The notes under the pieces are model-generated. The model was not told the DNA's origin and ran no database searches. It saw only the letters and a list, made by a program, of their open reading frames with translations. Positions 5,590 to 16,170 of a DNA stretch of 18,408 bases are shown piece after piece. The DNA lies in NCBI GenBank assembly GCA_011390385.1, contig JAABSN010000060.1:1-18408 (forward strand). Direction: 5' to 3'. The DNA is from Thioalkalivibrio nitratireducens (GTDB lineage Bacteria > Pseudomonadota > Gammaproteobacteria > Ectothiorhodospirales > Ectothiorhodospiraceae). Numbering within the stretch: position 1 is the first letter of the stretch; each line of letters begins with the position of its first letter. The translations under genes and the position numbers were made by a program.

Positions 5590-5647
5590 TGCGGCGCGCA
5601 CGGCAATGGACTGAACCAGCGCCAGCCCTATATTGAACCCACCGCTG

Positions 5648-7906
5648 ATGATAGAAGCTGACGCTCCCCGTTCGCCTGCTGATTGGTTGTCGCGTCTGAC
5701 GCACTCAGTTGCTGTCCTGACCTCCGGACTGCTGGTAGGTGGTCTGACTATCTTCGTTTCGGTGTCGTTGGCGGCGCTGATTTTTACCGGAGCATTGACG
5801 GGCCATCTCGAACGGGGCGTCGAGATGGCGCTGATCAGCGCCACACTGGTCGGATTGATCGTCTCCATCGCCGGCTCCGGTGCATTCACGATCGCGATTC
5901 CCCAGGACCGCACGGCGCCCATTCTGGCCATGATGGCCGCCAGTATCGTTGCGGCGGCCCCCGCAGGAACGAATGCAGACCAGCTTTTCCTCGGCGTCCT
6001 TGCCGCCATCGTGGGCACCACGCTGATCGTGGGGATTGTCCTGCTCTCCCTGGGGCTGGGTCGGGCCGGCGACCTGATGCGTTTCTTCCCCTACTCGGTG
6101 CTCGGCGGCTTTCTGGCCGGTACCGGTTGGCTGCTGGTACTGGGAGCCATGCGCATGATGAGCGGCATGGAACTCAACTCGGCGGCCGAGCTGGCGGCGC
6201 TGATGGCACCGCATCAGATTGTCCACTGGATGCCGGGTCTGGTGATCGCCGTGGCGCTTCTGCTCGCTTCGCGCAAGGCCAATCTTGCGATCACGTTGCC
6301 TCTGCTGTTGCTCGGGGCTACCGCAACGTTCTATGCCGTCATGCTGAACAACGGGGAGTCGTTGGCTTCGTTGAGCGCAACGGGATGGCTCCTCGGCACA
6401 TTTGACCCGACGGAATCCGCGATCATCCGACCCGGCGATTCAGGAATACTGCCGGGCAGCGCACAATTGCTGGCACAGGCGAACTGGTCTGTCGTCCCTT
6501 CGCAATGGGATGGGATTCTGACCGTGCTGCTGATCAGCGCGGTTTCGATCATGCTGACCGCGAGCGGAATGGAAATGCTCTCGCGCAACGATATCGACGT
6601 CAATCGTGAACTGCGGGTGGCCGGGATCGCCAATGTGGCGACCGGGCTGAGCGGCGGCATGGTCGGATTCCAGTCGTTGAGCCTTTCCAGTCTGGCGCTG
6701 AAGATGGGCGGCAAGACCCGGGTCGTGGGTGTTATCGCAGCACTGACCTGCGGCGCCGTATTGTGGTTCGGCACCGATCTCATTGTCTATCTGCCGCGGG
6801 GAATTCTGGGCGGCCTGTTGCTCTTCCTGGGGTTGTCACTTCTCGGTGGGTGGTTGATCGGGACCTGGGGGAAACTGCCGCACGGAGAATATCTCGTCAT
6901 ACCCTTGATCCTCGTTGTCATCGCCACCATGGGCTTTCTCGAGGGTATGTTGACCGGGCTGCTGGCAGCCGTGATCCTGTTCGTGATCAATTACAGTCGC
7001 ACGCCGATCGTTCGCTATGCACTTTCGGGCAAAGAGATGAAGAGTCGATTGGCGCGACCCGTTGATCACGAGCGCTATCTCCATGAGCACGGGGACCAAC
7101 TGCTGATACTGAAGCTTCGCGGGCACCTTTTTTTTGGTACCGCCAACCAGTTGCTCCAGCGGATTCAGGAGCGCGCCGATGACTCCGGCTCGCCATGTCT
7201 GCGGTATGTGCTGATCGATTTCAGGCAGGTCACGGGAATCGACTCTTCGGCGATGTATTCCTTCCTCCGGTTGCACAGGATGGCGGGGCAAAAGGGATTC
7301 CGGGTTCTGCTCACGGATCTCGCGCAACGGTTCCAGGAACGGCTGCATGTGCAGGAGCTGGTCGAGGCCGAGGGTATCTTCCAGACCTTCGCGGATCAGG
7401 ATCATGGGCTGGAGTGGTATGAAAATCAGGTCCTTGACAGATTTGGGCCTGTTCTCCTGCGTGTTTCCCCTTCGATCCTGGAGCGGCTTTCCGAGCATTT
7501 CAGCGATCAGACGGCCGTCGATGCCTTCCGGAATTATCTCTTCAAGATAGCCTTTTCCAAGGGACAAACCCTGATCACCCAGGGAGAACCCGCGGGCGAT
7601 CTCTTTTTTCTCGAGCAGGGCGGAGTCTCGGTGTATCTGCGCACCTCGGAAGGGCCAGTGATCCGGATCCAGCGCATGGGTCCGGGTACGGTTGTGGGCG
7701 AAATGGGGTTTTACCTCGATACGTTGCGTTCGGCGTCGGTGATCACTGATGACGACGGCAGTGCATATCGACTGACGCGGGAAGCACTCGACCGGATGGA
7801 GAAGGAACATCCGGAGTTCGCAATGATCCTGCATCGATTCATCGCGGACCTGCTGGCCGAGCGGCTGCACCGGACCATGCGGACCGTCGAGGCTGTAATG
7901 CACTAG
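5648..7906 (+). CDS. SulP family anion transporter with STAS and cyclic-nucleotide-binding domains
   Basis: This protein of about 752 residues has three parts. Residues 1-460 are highly hydrophobic and form the SulP/SLC26 membrane domain. Residues about 480-590 form a STAS domain with GIDSSAMYSFLRL, the loop that can carry a regulatory serine. Residues about 625-745 form a CRP-like cyclic-nucleotide-binding domain with a phosphate-binding cassette GEMGFYLDTLRSASV that keeps the key Glu and Arg. SulP proteins move sulfate, bicarbonate or other anions across the inner membrane; the ion is unknown here. The extra domain suggests control by a cyclic nucleotide, though some such domains bind none. 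ATG 5648 is preferred; a TTG 15 nt upstream is possible. Neither has a clear ribosome binding site. Confidence 0.88.
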   Translation: MIEADAPRSPADWLSRLTHSVAVLTSGLLVGGLTIFVSVSLAALIFTGALTGHLERGVEMALISATLVGLIVSIAGSGAFTIAIPQDRTAPILAMMAASIVAAAPAGTNADQLFLGVLAAIVGTTLIVGIVLLSLGLGRAGDLMRFFPYSVLGGFLAGTGWLLVLGAMRMMSGMELNSAAELAALMAPHQIVHWMPGLVIAVALLLASRKANLAITLPLLLLGATATFYAVMLNNGESLASLSATGWLLGTFDPTESAIIRPGDSGILPGSAQLLAQANWSVVPSQWDGILTVLLISAVSIMLTASGMEMLSRNDIDVNRELRVAGIANVATGLSGGMVGFQSLSLSSLALKMGGKTRVVGVIAALTCGAVLWFGTDLIVYLPRGILGGLLLFLGLSLLGGWLIGTWGKLPHGEYLVIPLILVVIATMGFLEGMLTGLLAAVILFVINYSRTPIVRYALSGKEMKSRLARPVDHERYLHEHGDQLLILKLRGHLFFGTANQLLQRIQERADDSGSPCLRYVLIDFRQVTGIDSSAMYSFLRLHRMAGQKGFRVLLTDLAQRFQERLHVQELVEAEGIFQTFADQDHGLEWYENQVLDRFGPVLLRVSPSILERLSEHFSDQTAVDAFRNYLFKIAFSKGQTLITQGEPAGDLFFLEQGGVSVYLRTSEGPVIRIQRMGPGTVVGEMGFYLDTLRSASVITDDDGSAYRLTREALDRMEKEHPEFAMILHRFIADLLAERLHRTMRTVEAVMH

Positions 7907-7956: not shown

Positions 7957-9666
7957 CTAATCGAAACCGACGATCTGCTCGATCGTTTGGCCAGCTCTGA
8001 GCTGGATACCGCTCCGCCGGATCGGTTCAGCCTGAATTCCGCTGCCGGTAAACTCGACGTCGTAGATCCCTGCCGGCAGCTCGTAGCTTCTCGGGTTGGC
8101 GTTGCCAATCCTGCTGGTGCCGAAGTCCCGAATCATGTCCCGCCCGGTGGCCTGATTGACGATCTTGACTCTGCCTTCCAGCGGGCGACCGTTGTGCGTC
8201 AGGCCCAGCTTGAGCGTACCGAGCTGGAAGTCATGAATCTGTTCGGCCTGCCGACCTGCGCTCACTTCGACACCACGCACCCAGGCAGCCTCGCCGAGGA
8301 TCCCACTGCCGGTAAACTCCACGTCATAAATCCCGGCCGGCAACTCGTAGCTTCTCGGGTTGGCGTTGCCAATCCTGCTGGTACCGAAGTCCCGAATCAG
8401 GTCCTGCCCGGTGGACGGATCGACGATCTTGACCCTGCCTTCGAGCGGACGACCGTTTTGCGTCAGGCCCAGCTTGAGGGTGCCGAGCTCGAAGTCATGA
8501 ATCTGCTCGGTCTGCTGACCTGCGCTCACTTCGACCCCACGAACCCAGGCGGGCCCGCCGAGGAGTCTGTTGCCCGTAAATTCCACGTCGTACACGCCGG
8601 CCGGCAAACTGTAGCTGCGAGGATTGTTGCGACCACTCAGCATGGTGGTTCCGAAATCCCGAATCATGTCCTGTTCGCTTGCCGCATCGACAACCCGAAC
8701 CCGGGCATCCCAGGGCTGCTGGTTGACGGTGACACCCAGCACCAGCGTGCCGGGTCCAAGCTCGAGGATCCGCTCAACCGTCTCGCCTTCAGCCACTTCA
8801 ACAGCGCGGAACCACTGGCCCTCGGCGAGCGTGTCCCCGCCTTCCAGCCAGACTTCGTAAACGCCGGCAGGGACAGCAAAAAAGCGTGGATTGGGATTGG
8901 AAGTGCCCAGCCAACCTGCAGGGCCTCCACTGCCAACCAACTCGACGCCGGTCTCGCTTTCAATGATCCGCACTGCGCCACGCTCAATCGGTTCGCCCAG
9001 GACATTGACGCCAAGGAGCAGGCCGGTCGTCGGCAGTTCAGGCTCCGGAGCAAGAACAATCCGCAGCGCCTCGGTCAGTTCATGGGTGCTGTCTGCCGAT
9101 ACGTACCGTCCGCCACCGGCTTCGGCCATGCACTGCAATTGGGAGGTGTCCTCATTTCCCATGGCAAAACCGACGACGTGAAAAGTGAAGTCGATGTCCA
9201 TGGCGGCCGCTGCGCGTACAGCCGCGCACGGGTCGCCTCCGCAGTTTTCCAGACCGTCTGATATCAGCACGACCGACGCCGCGTGCTCGCTGGTCTTGAG
9301 CAGATCCAGCGCGTGGGAAACAGAGCCGGTGATCGGCGTCATCCCCCTGGGGTTGATCGAATCGACTGTGCGCATGAAAGCCGCCTTTTCCAGCGTTCCC
9401 ATGCCAATCAGGGTCTCGATATCACCACAGTCGCCGCGTCGATTATGGCCGTAAGCCACCAGCGCCACGTTGGTGCTGCCATCGAGGTCGTCGACCACTT
9501 CGCGCATCACCTCGCGCGCGACGGTAATGCGATGCCCGCCCTCCATCTCGGCCCACATGCTGCCCGAGGCGTCAAATACAAAAATGACGTTTTGCGCCGG
9601 CTCGTCAGCCAGCGCATGGCCAAGACCGGCAAGCAGTAGTAAGCCCCCAAACAATTTACCCATCAT
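7957..9666 (-). CDS. Exported von Willebrand A domain protein with four tandem C-terminal repeats
   Basis: The 569-residue product begins with a signal peptide (MMGKLFGGLLLLAGLGHALA, cleavage likely near residue 20). A von Willebrand A domain follows (25-205), with the metal site DASGSM at 32-37, PRGMTPITGS at 106-115 and LISDGLEN. Residues 216-569 are four repeats of 86-91 residues at 216-306, 307-395, 396-483 and 484-569. Each has a pattern like GRPLEGRVKIVDPSTG, IRDFGTS, NPRSYELPAGIYDVEFTG and VRGVEVSAG. The last two are nearly identical, the first is divergent. The repeats look like small beta-sandwich modules of the PEGA or carboxypeptidase-regulatory type. The likely place is the periplasm or cell surface, with metal-dependent ligand binding. 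It converges on the SulP gene with 50 bp between. Confidence 0.85.
   Translation of the reverse strand: MMGKLFGGLLLLAGLGHALADEPAQNVIFVFDASGSMWAEMEGGHRITVAREVMREVVDDLDGSTNVALVAYGHNRRGDCGDIETLIGMGTLEKAAFMRTVDSINPRGMTPITGSVSHALDLLKTSEHAASVVLISDGLENCGGDPCAAVRAAAAMDIDFTFHVVGFAMGNEDTSQLQCMAEAGGGRYVSADSTHELTEALRIVLAPEPELPTTGLLLGVNVLGEPIERGAVRIIESETGVELVGSGGPAGWLGTSNPNPRFFAVPAGVYEVWLEGGDTLAEGQWFRAVEVAEGETVERILELGPGTLVLGVTVNQQPWDARVRVVDAASEQDMIRDFGTTMLSGRNNPRSYSLPAGVYDVEFTGNRLLGGPAWVRGVEVSAGQQTEQIHDFELGTLKLGLTQNGRPLEGRVKIVDPSTGQDLIRDFGTSRIGNANPRSYELPAGIYDVEFTGSGILGEAAWVRGVEVSAGRQAEQIHDFQLGTLKLGLTHNGRPLEGRVKIVNQATGRDMIRDFGTSRIGNANPRSYELPAGIYDVEFTGSGIQAEPIRRSGIQLRAGQTIEQIVGFD
7960..8748 (-). repeat. Three tandem 258-267-bp coding repeats within the vWA gene
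   Basis: Units at 8748-8482, 8481-8218 and 8217-7960 encode repeats 2, 3 and 4 of the vWA protein. Units 3 and 4 share long identical stretches, for example the codons for the NANPRSYELPAGIYDVEFTG segment, which points to fairly recent duplication or gene conversion. The copies also keep the opposite strand free of stops, giving a long antisense frame that is not a gene. Confidence 0.8.
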
Positions 9667-10482: not shown

Positions 10483-10754
10483 CCCGCGACACGGATACGA
10501 ATCCATGGTGGACGCACGCGCATTGATCAGCTGTAGGCTGGACCGAAGGGCGAGCGCAGCGAGTAACCCAAGCGGCGCATATGAAATCCACGCCTTATGG
10601 ATCGCCGCGTCCCGCCACGCTGCGCTCGCGGCTAAAGGCAGCGCTCCTCGCGATGACGGACTCAATCAGCGCTTCCCCAGGAATAACGGTTCAATGCCTG
10701 CGACGATATCGATCCGGACTTGAAGGGTGCGCGGCATCCACCAGGCACGCCGCT
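10483..10754. other. Intergenic region with two repeat-like segments
   Basis: This gap lies between the unrecognised gene and the 3' end of the channel gene. One segment (about 10533-10571) begins TGTAGGCTGGACCGAAGGGC and a second (about 10599-10659) runs from GGATCGCCGCGTC to CTCCTCGCGATGACGG. Both look like common dispersed intergenic repeats of proteobacteria. No RNA gene and no credible CDS is seen. Confidence 0.4.
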
Positions 10755-11828
10755 TCAGTCGCCCAGAAACTCGTGCTGCCACTGCTCCCAGTCCTCGGTG
10801 GCGGTGACGGTGAGGAGGGCCCGGTTGATGGGCTCGCGCAGCTCTCCGGCCTCGATCACCGCGAAGCCGTAGTCCTGGTCGTCGAGGGTGAAGGGCAACA
10901 CATGCAGGCGACGCATCTCGAAGGCGCTGATCTGGTAACGGAGAATCGCCTCATCGGAGACCACCGCCTCGACCTCGCCACGCTCGAGAGCGTTCAGCGC
11001 ATCGGTCAACGTGTCGTAGGCACTGAAATCGATCTGCCGCCCGTTGAGCCAGTCGGCTGCGGTGGTCCCGGGCAGAGCCGCAACGTGCACACGGCGAAGG
11101 TCCGCGGGCGAACTCACGCGGGACTCCAATTGGCCCACCGTCAGCGAGGAGGCGATCAGCGCCGTGAAGGTCGACACGGTGACCAGTGCCGCGAACATCC
11201 AGACCAGACCGATCAGACGTCCGAAGAAGGTCACCGGCGCCTTGTCTCCGTAACCAACGGTGGTCATGGTCACGGCGGCCCACCAGAACCCGGAGCCGAT
11301 GCCCTGTAGCGGCCGCTCGCTGAACTGCTCCCGGTTACGGCGGTGCTCGGCCAGCCAGAGCAACGCGCCCCAGAAGGTCAGCACACCGGCCAGTATCAGC
11401 AGCACCATCATGAAATCGCGCGAGAAGAACACGCGCACCACGGCCCACCAGCCACTATCGTGGCGAAGGCTGGCCGCCACGCCGAGGCCAGTACGGAACC
11501 ACGAGTGCGTGAAATCGAGCTGCCTCTCGCGTTCAGCCGTCATGGTCAGCGCGCCTACTGCCACATCAAGCCTGCCGTTCGCGGTCTCGTCGAGAACTTC
11601 ACGGATGCCGCGTTCGTGGTAGACGTAGTCGACCCCCATCTCCGTGGCGACTGCCTCCCAGAGGCGGACCGCGAGGCCGTCGTAGCCGCCCGCACCGTCG
11701 GGGATCACGAACGGAGGCGCTACCCGGACGCCGACCTGCAGAGTTTCCCGATCGATCGAGCCCTGCCCCTGCACCGGGGCCACGGGGAAGACGAGAAGGA
11801 CGAGCAACGCGGAAAGCAATCGGATCAT
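10755..11828 (-). CDS. GluR0-like ligand-gated potassium channel
   Basis: This 357-residue protein combines a periplasmic amino-acid-binding fold with a potassium pore, the layout of prokaryotic ionotropic glutamate receptors. A signal peptide (1-21) is followed by the first ligand-binding lobe (about 30-125, LQVGVRVAPPFVIPDGAGGY and then LDVAVGALTMTAERERQLDF). A transmembrane helix follows (138-160), then a pore loop with the potassium filter TVGYGD at 190-195, a second transmembrane helix (about 204-226) and the second lobe (about 240-340). A small ligand outside the inner membrane would open the channel. ATG 11828 has GGAGG 4 nt upstream, so it is preferred over the longer frame to 11897. 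It stands alone on the minus strand. The ligand cannot be named. Confidence 0.88.
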   Translation of the reverse strand: MIRLLSALLVLLVFPVAPVQGQGSIDRETLQVGVRVAPPFVIPDGAGGYDGLAVRLWEAVATEMGVDYVYHERGIREVLDETANGRLDVAVGALTMTAERERQLDFTHSWFRTGLGVAASLRHDSGWWAVVRVFFSRDFMMVLLILAGVLTFWGALLWLAEHRRNREQFSERPLQGIGSGFWWAAVTMTTVGYGDKAPVTFFGRLIGLVWMFAALVTVSTFTALIASSLTVGQLESRVSSPADLRRVHVAALPGTTAADWLNGRQIDFSAYDTLTDALNALERGEVEAVVSDEAILRYQISAFEMRRLHVLPFTLDDQDYGFAVIEAGELREPINRALLTVTATEDWEQWQHEFLGD

Positions 11829-12336
11829 GCGGCCTCCGGACCAACCGTTTTGGGCCATCCTGCCCTGCAGGCGTGCTCCTGTCACGGTACCGCGCACACA
11901 GGCTCGCCCGAACGCAGCCCTGTATTGTGGTCCCGGCGCGGTTTAGCTTGCGTCTCACTGCACCCTGCTGGACACCCTTGTAGCACTGCGCATGGCCGGA
12001 CCTCGACCAATCGGAGCCGAGTGCCGAGCCCATGGTGTTCCGGGAGAAAGCGCTGTTATCATCAACGGCCAAGGGACGCGCAATGACACTGCGGCCCGAA
12101 GCCCTGCACTGAGCTTCGTTCAACGTGCACATTCACGACCCTCGCACGGCTGGCTTCGATCACCGCACGGTGACGACGCGCCTGATGAAAGTTGACAGGA
12201 ACCGACAGCAACAGGTATCCAGACCCGCTTTGAAGGGTGATGCCAGGCGGCCCGGAAATGGATCTGGTCGTTAACCGACCGCAACACGTTGTGCACTAAA
12301 ACAAACAAAACAAGAATCATATGGAGGAAGGACAAA
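11829..12336. other. Divergent intergenic region before the sulfur locus
   Basis: This 508-bp region lies between the divergent channel and porin genes and must hold both promoters, but I cannot place either with confidence. A short palindrome GGTCG-TTAAC-CGACC lies at 12266-12280, about 57 bp before the porin start, and could bind a regulator. Just before the porin gene the leader turns A-rich and carries a strong ribosome binding site (GGAGGAAGGA, 12323-12332). No RNA gene or convincing small CDS is seen. Confidence 0.4.
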
Positions 12337-13668
12337 TTGGCATATTCGATTCGCAGGATGAGTGTGGCCATGGCACTGGCAATCTCGGGTGTGGGCGGAA
12401 TTCTGGGTGCCCCGCAGACTGCCGAGGCCACTTTCGGATACTACGGCTATGGGTACGGGACCCAGAGCAAGGGCATGGGCGGTGCCGGAACCGCATTGGC
12501 ACAGGATCCCCTCGCGGGGCTTACGAATCCGGCCAGCCTGGTACATCTGGGCAACGTATGGGCGGCTGGCGCCACGCTGTTCAATCCGAACCGCAGCTAC
12601 ACGGCCGACGCGAACTTTCAACCCCCGATGGGTCCGGGCGATCCGACCTTCATCACTCCCGGTCGATACAAGAGCGGAAGCGACTTGTTCCTGATTCCGA
12701 ATTTCGCCCGCAACTGGAAACTCGACGAAAACAGCGCGATCACACTCTCGCTCGCGGGCAACGGCGGCATGAACACGGACTTTGGAAAAGCCGTATTCGA
12801 AAACTTCGCGCCCCCCGACGCACCCGCCCAGTTCCAGGCGTCGAAGCCGACCGGAATCAACCTGATGCAGCTGGCCGTCGGCATCAGCTATTCGCGTCGC
12901 CTGAACGATCAGCACAGCATCGGCGTTACGCCGATCCTTGCGGTACAGGGTTTCAAGGCCACCGGACTCGAACCCTTCCGCGCGGTCTCGAAGCACCCGG
13001 ACAAGCTCACCAACAACGGCCATGACCTCTCCTACGGCGGCGGCATACGCATCGGCTGGATGGGGCAGATCACCGATGAACTGAGCCTCGGGGCCTCGTA
13101 CCAGAGCAAGCTGAAGATGAGCCGCTTCAAGGACTACAAGGGTCTGTTCGCCAATGGAGGGGAGTTCGACATTGCCGGGACCTGGAACGTCGGAGTCGGA
13201 TACAAGGTGACACCGGATGTGACGGTGGCATTCGACGTACAGCGTTATCTGTTCTCGGACGTGAAGTCGATCGCCAACCCCGGGGACCTTCCGATCGCGC
13301 CGGGCTCGATCGTGATGGGCACCGACAACGGTCTTGGTTTTGGCTGGAAGGATGTCACTGCCTACAAGCTCGGCGTACAGTGGCGGCAGAGTCCGAAACT
13401 CACGCTGCGCGCCGGCGTCGCACACGGCAGCCAGCCCGTTCCCAGCAGCCAGGCGCTGTTCAACATCCTGGCCCCCGGGGTGACCCAGCGGCACTACACA
13501 CTGGGACTGAGCTACCGTATCAGCGATCGCAGCGAGATCACGGCGTCGTTCATGCACGCACCTCGGGAACGGGTCCGGGGAAGCAACCCGAATACCGGGC
13601 CTCAGACGGGATTCATCGAGATGGATCAGAACGAGTTCGAATTGACGTTCACCCGATACCTGAACTGA
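12337..13668 (+). CDS. OmpP1/FadL family outer-membrane channel
   Basis: The product (443 residues from TTG 12337) has a signal peptide ending about QTAEA, then the FadL plug hallmark GYGTQSKGMGGAGTALAQD and LTNPASLVHLG. A beta-barrel of alternating residues follows, ending ELTFTRYLN. FadL proteins carry hydrophobic molecules across the outer membrane by a lateral opening in the barrel. The TTG start is preferred because GGAGGAAGGA lies 4 nt upstream; ATG 12358 is farther from it and would shorten the signal peptide. The gene is 42 bp before sor on the same strand with no terminator between, so co-transcription is likely. That position suggests the cargo could be hydrophobic sulfur, which is inference; fatty acids or hydrocarbons are the usual cargoes. 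Confidence 0.87.
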   Translation: MAYSIRRMSVAMALAISGVGGILGAPQTAEATFGYYGYGYGTQSKGMGGAGTALAQDPLAGLTNPASLVHLGNVWAAGATLFNPNRSYTADANFQPPMGPGDPTFITPGRYKSGSDLFLIPNFARNWKLDENSAITLSLAGNGGMNTDFGKAVFENFAPPDAPAQFQASKPTGINLMQLAVGISYSRRLNDQHSIGVTPILAVQGFKATGLEPFRAVSKHPDKLTNNGHDLSYGGGIRIGWMGQITDELSLGASYQSKLKMSRFKDYKGLFANGGEFDIAGTWNVGVGYKVTPDVTVAFDVQRYLFSDVKSIANPGDLPIAPGSIVMGTDNGLGFGWKDVTAYKLGVQWRQSPKLTLRAGVAHGSQPVPSSQALFNILAPGVTQRHYTLGLSYRISDRSEITASFMHAPRERVRGSNPNTGPQTGFIEMDQNEFELTFTRYLN

Positions 13669-13710
13669 TCGATCGTCCCTGAATTCCGTCACTTGACCTT
13701 TGGAGAGCCG

Positions 13711-14652
13711 ATGAGCACGGATATCAAGGCCCTGTTCGATGCCGAGCCCGATTCACCCCTGTACGTCGCAATCAACCGCGTGATGGTGGAGAACAACCCC
13801 AGCCTGATGCGCATGATGCGCCAGGCCAGTTCCGAAATGTGCCTGGCGACCGCGCTGACGCCGGGGTTCCGGGGTTTCGACCTGATGCGGCAGACAGGAA
13901 GCTGCCCGATGGGCATGCGCTGGGGCGCCAGTACCGACATGACCCAGGAACTCTCGCATATCTGGATCGATCAGTTCACCTACTGGGACAGCCTGGAGGC
14001 GCACGAGGACTTCCACGAGACTTTCGAGGACGTGGTGGTCACCGCGTGCGACAAGTGCGGCAACGTGCTGCTCGATGGCCCCGAGGAGCCGGTGTACCGC
14101 ATCGTGAAAAGCCACTTGCCCAAGCTGGTATCGCTGAACCAGTTCGAGCATGCGCGGGCTGCCGGCGGGAACCTCGCGCACATGGCGGTGGACTCCGGGC
14201 GTACCGTGACCGTACTGGCAACCCACCACGTGCGTCCGGGCAAGGAAGCGGAGTTCGAGGATGGCGAAATCCAGACCATGGAACTCCTGCGCGAGACCAA
14301 CGGTATGATCGGCTACCAGATCCTGAAACGCGTCGGTATCTCCACGCTCGGATCGGGTCACGCGACCGTCGATTCGATCATGGAACGCATGAAGGACACT
14401 CCCGGGGCCAAGCTCAAGCGCACGGCCGAGGTCTGGGAGGGCTACACCATTCCCGCCGAATACGTGGTGATGGTGGAATGGGAGACACTCGAGGCCGCAC
14501 AGCGCGGCATGCCGCACGTGAACGTGAAGCCCGAAATACTCTTCGTTCACGGCCCCAAGGTATTCAACAACTGCATCCGCATGCCCACCGTGCGTATGGC
14601 CACATCCATGTTCGCGGAGCAGACCTATCGCGAGGTGCTGCAGCAGGCCTGA
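13711..14652 (+). CDS. sor: Sulfur oxygenase reductase
   Basis: SOR is a cytoplasmic, cofactor-free iron enzyme that disproportionates elemental sulfur with oxygen to sulfite, thiosulfate and sulfide. The 313-residue product matches family length. It keeps the active-site Cys44 (SSEMCLATA), the iron ligands His98 and His102 (HEDFH) and Glu126 (GPEEPVY), and the pair Cys113/Cys116 (CDKC). Spacings agree with Acidianus SOR: 15 residues from the first His to the first Cys and 10 from the second Cys to the Glu. Family members form a hollow 24-subunit sphere. ATG 13711 has GGAG 5 nt upstream; the frame also opens at TTG 13693. It follows the FadL-type gene by 42 bp and precedes a CoA-disulfide-reductase-type gene. 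No damage is seen, so the enzyme should be active. Confidence 0.95.
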   Translation: MSTDIKALFDAEPDSPLYVAINRVMVENNPSLMRMMRQASSEMCLATALTPGFRGFDLMRQTGSCPMGMRWGASTDMTQELSHIWIDQFTYWDSLEAHEDFHETFEDVVVTACDKCGNVLLDGPEEPVYRIVKSHLPKLVSLNQFEHARAAGGNLAHMAVDSGRTVTVLATHHVRPGKEAEFEDGEIQTMELLRETNGMIGYQILKRVGISTLGSGHATVDSIMERMKDTPGAKLKRTAEVWEGYTIPAEYVVMVEWETLEAAQRGMPHVNVKPEILFVHGPKVFNNCIRMPTVRMATSMFAEQTYREVLQQA

Positions 14653-14690
14653 CCCCGATAACGCGTGTTCTCTCTCATTGGGGGAGAGGC

Positions 14691-14743
14691 TGGGGGAAGG
14701 CGGATGGCGGTCGCGGGGATTCCCCGACCGCTGCCTTCACCCC
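14691..14743. repeat. Long hairpin between sor and the flavoprotein gene
   Basis: GGGGGAAGGC (14692-14701) pairs with GCCTTCACCCC (14733-14743), and the inner stem GCGGTCGCGGGGA pairs with TTCCCCGACCGC (14707-14731) with one bulge. A short CTCTC/GAGAG arm precedes it (about 14672-14687). No T-run follows, so it is not a classic terminator; it may be a REP-type repeat or a transcript-stabilising stem after sor. Confidence 0.6.
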
Positions 14744-14814
14744 GCGGTCTCGATGGAATCACGTCCCGTTGCGCAACGAACGTTGCAAACTCCGCACAAC
14801 AGCGAGGTCCGAGA

Positions 14815-16170
14815 ATGCCCATGCCAAACCGCAAGCTGGTCGTCATCGGCGGCGATGCCGCTGGAATGAGCGCGGCATCCAAGGTCCGGCGCGAACATCC
14901 GGAACGCGAGATCGTGGTGTTTGAACGCGGTCGGCACACCTCCTATGCGGCCTGCGGCATGCCCTACTTCATCGCCGGCCAGGTGGAATCGTCCGATCGC
15001 CTGATAGCGCGCAAGCCCGAGGTCTTCCGCGAAAAACAGAACATTGACGTACGCATCCGGCACGAGGTCGTGGAAATCGACACGGCGCAACGGCGGGTCA
15101 GGGTTCTCGATCTGGAGCAGAAAGCGACCTTCTGGGAGAGTTGGGACGACTTGCTGATCGCCACCGGCGCCTCTCCGATCGCTCCCGACCTGCCGAACAT
15201 CGACGCCAAGGGGATCTTCAGCCTTTCCACCCTGCAGAGCGGGATCGACGTCTTCGAGTACGTGGAGGCCCAGCGACCCGCGAAAGCCGTCGTCGTCGGT
15301 GGCGGTTACATCGGAATCGAGATGGCGGAGGCATTGTGCGAACGCGGCATGGAAGTCGCGTTGGTCGACATGGCAGCCGAGGTGATGGTCAGTATGGACG
15401 CCGACATCGCGGCGTCGGTCAGTCAGGCCATGAGAGATGCGGGAGTCAGCGTGTTCCTGAGCGAGCAAATCGAGCGCTTCGAAACCGACTCGGACGGAAG
15501 GGTCCGCGCCGTGGTCACCGACCGGCGGGTGCTGGAGGCCGATCTGGTGATTCTGGGCATCGGGATTCGGCCAAATGCCGAGCTGGCTGAGAAAGCCGGA
15601 ATCGAACTGGGCGCCGGCGGCGCGATCCAGGTGAACAAGCGACTCGAAACGTCGGTGCCGCATGTCTGGGCGGCCGGCGACTGCGCCGAATCGTTTCACC
15701 TGGTCAAGGAGGAGCCGGTTTTCATTGCCCTCGGTACGGTCGCCAACAAGCACGGACTGGTGGCCGGCATCAACATCAGCGGCGGAACGATGGAGTTTCC
15801 CGGTGTTCTCGGGACCGCGATCACCCGGTTCCGCGATCTGGAGATTTCCCGCACGGGTCTGTCGGAAAAGGAAGCGGAAGCGGCCGGGATTCCATTCAGG
15901 GCGAAGACCATCGACGCCCTGACCCGGTCCCACTACTTCCCGGGCACCGCGAAACTGAAAGTGAAACTGGTGGTGGAAGACCGGACCGGGCGCCTCCTCG
16001 GCGGCCAGATCGTGGGTGGAAACGGCGCTGCCAAGCGCATCGACACCCTGGCCGTCGCGATCACGGCACGGCTTACGGCGGAGCAACTGGTCTATACGGA
16101 CCTCTCCTATGCTCCGCCCTTCTCGCCGGTCTGGGATCCGGTGCAGACGGCTGCCAGAACACTGGTGTAA
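14815..16170 (+). CDS. CoA-disulfide reductase-like FAD/NAD(P)H oxidoreductase
   Basis: The 451-residue product starts with an FAD-binding Rossmann motif (VVIGGDAAGMSAASKVRR), has the single redox Cys47 in SYAACGMPY, a second NAD(P)H-binding motif VVVGGGYIGIEMAEAL at 160-175, AAGDCAE, and a C-terminal dimerisation domain ending TDLSYAPPFSPVWDPVQTAA. This is the pattern of CoA-disulfide reductases and related NADH oxidases and persulfide reductases; no rhodanese domain is fused on. ATG 14815 has GAGG 7 nt upstream, and the longer frame reaching 14665 is repeat DNA. It follows sor by 162 bp with a hairpin between. It may reduce thiol-persulfides or disulfides formed around sulfur oxidation; exact substrate and nucleotide preference are unknown. 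Confidence 0.88.
   Translation: MPMPNRKLVVIGGDAAGMSAASKVRREHPEREIVVFERGRHTSYAACGMPYFIAGQVESSDRLIARKPEVFREKQNIDVRIRHEVVEIDTAQRRVRVLDLEQKATFWESWDDLLIATGASPIAPDLPNIDAKGIFSLSTLQSGIDVFEYVEAQRPAKAVVVGGGYIGIEMAEALCERGMEVALVDMAAEVMVSMDADIAASVSQAMRDAGVSVFLSEQIERFETDSDGRVRAVVTDRRVLEADLVILGIGIRPNAELAEKAGIELGAGGAIQVNKRLETSVPHVWAAGDCAESFHLVKEEPVFIALGTVANKHGLVAGINISGGTMEFPGVLGTAITRFRDLEISRTGLSEKEAEAAGIPFRAKTIDALTRSHYFPGTAKLKVKLVVEDRTGRLLGGQIVGGNGAAKRIDTLAVAITARLTAEQLVYTDLSYAPPFSPVWDPVQTAARTLV

Follow-up and report, generated by a model that had tools for sequence, protein, structure and literature searches.

The window analyzed here, a stretch of 18,408 nucleotides from the soda-lake sulfur bacterium Thioalkalivibrio nitratireducens (contig JAABSN010000060.1), carries on its + strand, at positions 12337-16170, three consecutive genes that encode a FadL-type outer-membrane channel, a sulfur oxygenase reductase (SOR, gene sor), and a flavoprotein resembling coenzyme A disulfide reductase (CoADR). 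An initial annotation of this locus had proposed a possible unit for sulfur uptake and oxidation, in which a channel for hydrophobic molecules lies 42 bp upstream of sor with no terminator between them and is followed by the flavoprotein. This arrangement and its coordinates were confirmed by reading the open reading frames and by Pfam profiles, a terminator scan, and folding. The contig ends 2.2 kb past the unit, whose parts are the following:

12187..12336, + strand: upstream region of the unit, with the ribosome-binding site GGAGGAAGG (read from the sequence) before TTG 12337; blastn homology to locus L001 starts at 12187.
12337..13668, + strand: FadL/OMPP1-type outer-membrane channel, 443 aa, of the sulfur-linked type (PF03349).
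13669..13710, + strand: fadL-sor gap, 42 bp, without a terminator-like site (terminator scan and folding; 29-42 bp in four loci).
13711..14652, + strand: sulfur oxygenase reductase (sor), 313 aa (PF07682; closest solved structure 9rdn; candidate catalytic residues).
14653..14814, + strand: sor-flavoprotein gap, 162 bp, with a hairpin at 14689-14745 that lacks a T run (terminator scan and folding).
14815..16170, + strand: CoADR/NADH-oxidase-type flavoprotein, 451 aa, with Cys47 in SYAACGMP (Pyr_redox_2, Pyr_redox_dim; TIGR03385 match).

Judged from the sequence, the best starts were TTG 12337 for fadL, with GGAGGAAGG a few bases 5' of it, ATG 13711 for sor, and ATG 14815 for the flavoprotein gene. 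The TTG start gives a channel of 443 aa, as in its nearest relative (P0122). No terminator-like site was found in the fadL-sor gap (13669-13710), and the stretch 13640-13730 folded no better than shuffled sequences (z +0.56). The initial annotation had not noticed the strong hairpin at 14689-14745 in the gap between sor and the flavoprotein gene (z −2.26 against shuffles), because of which the locus may consist of two transcription segments. The same gap gave z −3.65 and −5.44 in two related genomes (G001 and G060, respectively) and was no better than shuffles in a third (G059, z −0.51). As the window hairpin has no T run, it might terminate transcription in part or else protect an RNA end. 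We infer co-transcription of the first two genes: fadL and sor look like a likely transcription pair, and the flavoprotein gene looks like a fixed neighbour.

The channel scored 84 bits against PF03349, over the curated cut-off of 29.7, and a FadL barrel fold was predicted across its mature chain. The NPA motif is present (TNPAS), with N64 and P65 invariant in 53 sequences, and we assume, from the role generally given to this motif, that it sits in the hatch. The protein ends in RYLN (13657-13668), so its last residue is not aromatic, whereas F is the final residue in the consensus of its relatives; an aromatic last residue is usual, but not defining, for outer-membrane barrels. E. coli FadL and the TodX and TbuX proteins of Pseudomonas and Ralstonia share PF03349 with the window channel at 16-23% identity, but the window type differs from them in its link to sulfur genes and in its last residue, N.

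The SOR matched PF07682 with 215.8 bits (cut-off 25), but its 179.7 bits against the NCBIfam equivalog NF047630 did not reach the cut-off of 400. The name was kept because of the Pfam match, the residues, and the closest solved structure, 9rdn (E 5e-195), which is named SOR and has nearly the same sequence. Residues C44, H98, H102, C113, C116, and E126, which we take to be candidate iron ligands or active-site cysteines, are invariant in the alignment and common to nine paralogues. These candidate catalytic residues are kept in the SOR of T. paradoxus (P0002; closest PDB entry 9rdn), which is 89% identical over the full length, and no notable difference between the two enzymes was found. Nine genomes (G001, G002, G003, G006, G059, G068, G073, G074, and G078; L177-L185) contain a further SOR family that shares 33-37% identity with the window SOR and has all six candidate catalytic residues; at L179 and L181 its gene is followed by what appears, from gene sizes, to be a resistance-nodulation-division (RND) efflux set.

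The flavoprotein scored 473.8 bits against the CoADR profile TIGR03385 and 445.7 bits against a second NCBI equivalog, under the respective cut-offs of 578.8 and 458, and is therefore named CoADR-like only. It matches CoADR and NADH oxidase flavoproteins over the full length (TIGR03385; PDB 6ruz, 4fx9) and has the cysteine of the SYAACG motif. CoA-persulfide reductases of the Npsr type carry a C-terminal rhodanese domain, whereas none was found by Pfam in the 451 aa of the window flavoprotein.

The main question raised by this locus is whether its channel belongs to a FadL type of its own that is tied to sulfur oxidation. Among the 101 FadL proteins placed in a tree, the 28 labelled as ordinary FadL by best match formed one group (support 100 in the Shimodaira-Hasegawa-like approximate likelihood ratio test, SH-aLRT; stem of 1.95 changes per column), and the window channel lay outside it. 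Five Thioalkalivibrio channels formed a group of their own, nested among the window-type proteins. The tree was quick and midpoint-rooted, with a very long row (L237) at the root, and five proteins (L095, L096, L128_9933, L225_6043, and L267_3189) stood between its two sides; for these reasons, "type" designates here the proteins beyond the stem and not a proven clade.

The distribution of the type was analyzed in a class-level sample of 369 genomes. Window-type FadL (E ≤1e-50) was found in 86 of them and dsrA in 119 (112 above the family cut-off, plus 7 strong fragments added by hand). Both genes were present in 66 genomes, FadL only in 20, dsrA only in 53, and neither in 230, so that window-type FadL follows dsrA with an odds ratio of 14.3 (Fisher p 9e-23, kinship and completeness of the genomes not being taken into account). 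All 10 carriers at E ≤1e-100 had dsrA. Among the 20 carriers lacking dsrA, 12 had soxB over the cut-off and 5 an sLpl(AB)-like protein, both being sought in these 20 only. As a control, strong ordinary FadL (E ≤1e-60, a limit that we set ourselves) was the best Pfam match in 144 genomes, 41 with and 103 without dsrA (odds ratio 0.75, p 0.25); at E ≤1e-90, the odds ratio was 1.1 (p 0.71).

Gene neighbourhoods pointed in the same direction. Gene surroundings were read over at most 18 kb, many stretches being shortened by the end of a contig. They were taken at the window-type genes of the 40 best-scoring genomes of the class sample, with G003, G007, and G041 set aside beforehand, and at 20 ordinary FadL genes, hand-chosen in genomes with dsrA and at a distance from any window-type gene; neither count includes matches to rhodanese or M48 peptidase. 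Genes for sox, Dsr, DsrE2, or lipoate assembly were present in 22 of the 40 window-type stretches and in 3 of the 20 ordinary ones (p 0.005). When the stretches of at least 14 kb were considered, these numbers were 17/27 and 1/13, respectively (p 0.0017). The idea that the channel is tied to sulfur oxidation is thus borne out by statistics and by position for the FadL type, but not by a general place beside sor, and the link of the type is the stronger of the two findings. A secreted protein of ~307 aa with a DUF302-type N-terminal half was often seen beside the sulfur-linked FadL (L222-L253 and other loci). At seven loci (L222, L223, L224, L227, L228, L233, and L241), an ordinary-type FadL stood divergently beside it.

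Conservation of the locus itself was searched in 47 genomes, those of the family of G003. The order fadL-sor-flavoprotein was found in the window and in three other Thioalkalivibrio genomes, namely a metagenome-assembled genome (G001), T. nitratireducens (G059), and T. paradoxus (G060), and the fadL-sor gap measured 42, 41, 29, and 29 bp in the four trio loci. G074, where the region is split over two contigs, is consistent with the same trio. By blastn, the homology between the window and G001 (L001) spans 12187-16170 and ends at the stop codon of the flavoprotein gene, with a further 89-bp patch at 11993-12081; beyond the unit, the window flanks hardly matched the other trio genomes, and G059 shared one further short patch (window 10518-10676). 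An order shared by three other genomes amid such dissimilar flanks points to more than coincidence. The patch at 10518-10676, similar to L126 7320-7477 (160 bp, 78% identical), lies outside the shared order and is possibly a dispersed repeat.

The flavoprotein (at least 73% identity) was present in 13 of the 47 genomes, two matches at 36-37% being left out. A divergently placed amidohydrolase gene, identified by Pfam in two cases and by similarity in the others, borders the unit or contig piece in ten genomes (G002, G003, G004, G006, G059, G060, G073, G074, G078, and G079); it was not seen in the stretch examined of G001, and the contigs of G005 and G077 begin inside the unit. The interval between amidohydrolase and flavoprotein genes contains fadL and sor in G059, G060, and probably G074, fadL alone in G003, and sor alone in G002 and G006 (in G006, two contigs share a 55-base end). 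In G002, sor and the flavoprotein gene overlap (TGATG), and a decayed 3' end of fadL, ~95 bases long, is still found upstream of sor; no such remnant before sor was found in G003, G004, or G006. In the flavoprotein tree, rooted at the midpoint, the trio is present on either side of the root. The simplest reading of these comparisons would be that the trio is old and that losses and moves came later.

The view of the three genes as one sulfur unit therefore held in part: the close fadL-sor pair is kept in four Thioalkalivibrio loci, but the flavoprotein occupies the same place without fadL and sor in four genomes, and its role as a dedicated SOR partner was rejected. Since it stays in place without either gene, we regard it as a neighbour and not as a partner dedicated to SOR.

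Taken together, these data give about an even chance that a distinct FadL type serves sulfur oxidation, most likely as a polysulfane/S8 channel, and that fadL and sor form a unit in the Thioalkalivibrio group. We give a sulfur cargo of the type a probability of about one half, and regard it as likelier still that the type belongs to the sulfur-oxidation module, whichever its cargo. The broadest form of the idea holds that in sulfur-oxidising bacteria elemental sulfur (polysulfane or S8) passes the outer membrane through this type, which occurs across Gammaproteobacteria, frequently in the vicinity of sox, dsr, DsrE2, lipoate-assembly, or sor genes and frequently with the DUF302-type secreted protein; this form is put forward tentatively, as the probability that we give it stays below an even chance. 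That the type is linked to sox, dsr, lipoate-assembly, and sor genes would be expected if the cargo were a sulfur compound, or something common to all of them.

FadL barrels pass hydrophobic molecules inward over the outer membrane, and polysulfane and S8 are hydrophobic and belong to the substrate class of SOR. On this reading, the FadL route across the outer membrane, possibly through the hatch and a lateral opening as in E. coli FadL, would serve a hydrophobic sulfur compound, for which polysulfane chains or S8 are the likeliest candidates. By joining fadL to sor in a two-gene unit, the cell would make sulfur entry and the cytoplasmic conversion by SOR together. This scheme ends at the outer membrane, and the step from periplasm to cytoplasm stands outside it. 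The flavoprotein, whose gene is a fixed neighbour and probably has at least some transcription of its own, may reduce persulfides or polysulfides.

Several observations weigh against this interpretation. When any PF03349 match was counted, window-type included, an association with dsrA was also obtained (odds ratio 2.27, p 0.001), and none of the co-occurrence statistics was corrected for the kinship of the genomes. In the six best-scoring loci of the class sample (L216-L221, 44-51% identical), the stretch is devoid of such sulfur genes; all six genomes carry dsrA. The window-type gene adjoins tgt and folD in the Thiotrichaceae loci read, and ordinary-type FadL or lipoate genes stand alongside in several loci, which would fit a lipid cargo. 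Within the family, the interval between amidohydrolase and flavoprotein genes is empty in G004, G073, G078, and G079. Among the genomes with the close sor type, only the eroded fadL end is left in G002, a close fadL is absent from G006, and sor lies away from fadL in G003 and G004; SOR thus needs no such channel beside it. Moreover, the initial annotation had proposed a check of sor loci in unrelated genomes for FadL-type neighbours, whose absence it named as a refutation, and fadL adjoined sor in none of the 41 loci outside Thioalkalivibrio, 35 of which have at least 1.5 kb upstream of sor (the query was the window's own FadL, so that a distant FadL could be missed). This goes against a fadL-sor unit as a general arrangement, and the earlier reading as a whole is partly supported.

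These 41 loci (L007-L047) belong to 47 sor loci from a collection with one genome per species, scanned by two short peptide patterns; the scan was incomplete, as it missed G059 and G060, and L047 is a 48-residue match only. Among all 47, fadL adjoins sor in L001 only, and the pair was rejected as a general arrangement. At L029, fadL lies ~1.35 kb downstream of sor with a tRNA-guanine transglycosylase gene in between, and L023 has a weak fadL match ~9 kb from sor. The sor neighbours scanned were assorted (radical SAM, U32 peptidase, ChaN, GGDEF, and others), and no common sor operon was seen among them. At any place in the genome, window-type FadL was found in 32 of 46 sor-bearing genomes (E ≤1e-20). 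In two sor-bearing genomes (L079 and L083), SoeABC-like genes were observed near it.

The main rival explanation, which we regard as unlikely, is that the type imports octanoate, a medium-chain fatty acid, or lipoate for the sLpl(AB)-LipS1/S2 lipoate assembly needed by sHdr sulfur oxidation, the fadL gene beside sor being a relic or paralogue of that transporter. Such a role would also account for the link to sulfur oxidisers. Of the 19 loci read in the Thioalkalivibrio family, 13 have lipoate-assembly genes at most four genes from window-type FadL (29 of the 47 family genomes have a window-type match, and not all were read), and 4 of the 40 class-sample loci have them near it. In the lipoate cluster of Thioalkalivibrio K90mix, lipY is termed a putative fatty acid transporter in a figure legend (PMC10332631), and members of the type adjoin lipS1-sLpl(AB)-lipT-lipS2-like genes in related genomes, whereas the window copy adjoins sor; the likeness of LipY to the type is one of gene position. 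No genes of this kind were found among the nine window proteins scanned, in a contig that ends shortly after the unit. However, 18 of the 40 class-sample loci have sox, dsr, or DsrE2 without lipoate-assembly genes, and of the 20 dsrA-lacking carriers, in which alone it was sought, only 5 have an sLpl(AB)-like protein. In addition, T. paradoxus ARh1 has no hdr, as the passage concerned is read (PMC6382920), yet its channel is next to sor. An octanoate cargo thus fits the Lip neighbours, but neither the sox neighbours nor T. paradoxus.

Transport may be inward or outward. If outward, periplasmic polysulfane would leave through the channel and give extracellular S0, and SOR would use the remainder inside. 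FadL channels are passive, extracellular sulfur deposits are typical of Thioalkalivibrio and its family, and members of the type lie near sox genes, whose products handle sulfane sulfur in the periplasm. We nevertheless consider this improbable, as it leaves unexplained why sor, whose product consumes sulfur, is the partner.

It is equally improbable that fadL encodes a housekeeping lipid or hydrocarbon channel beside which sor was inserted or kept without a functional link: the slot is labile (neither gene in four genomes, one of the two in G003, G002, and G006) and the adjacency does not extend to the sor loci outside the genus, but the close spacing persists in four loci whose surroundings are of three kinds (window, G001, and G059/G060). 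An old trio with losses is suggested by the remnant of fadL in G002 and by the flavoprotein tree, which has the trio on either side of its midpoint root, and the sulfur-gene association, which strong ordinary FadL lacks, is unexpected for a lipid channel.

The FadL fold and SOR are already known. No description of the sulfur-linked FadL type as a whole was found in the open-licence literature, nor any paper there treating both "sulfur oxygenase reductase" and "FadL"; the FadL passages seen in sulfur-oxidation papers concern fatty acids, not sulfur (PMC4287430, PMC10487802). A named protein type makes the passage of insoluble sulfur across the outer membrane an addressable question. Since the type recurs in sulfur-oxidising bacteria, it would be a good candidate for the outer-membrane door of solid sulfur, and its clear gene neighbourhood, with one case joined directly to a sulfur enzyme, makes the question concrete. 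If true, this interpretation would also be a warning against annotating such genes simply as long-chain fatty acid transporters.

In the window as a whole, no Rfam match over the gathering scores was obtained. Outside the unit, positions 5633-7906 encode a SulP-type transporter that combines STAS and cyclic-nucleotide-binding domains in one protein. On the − strand, 10755-11897 encodes a solute-binding protein carrying an inserted ion-channel segment, which presumably resembles bacterial glutamate-receptor channels, and 7957-9666 encodes a VWA-domain protein with internal repeats of ~264 bp that are 83% identical.

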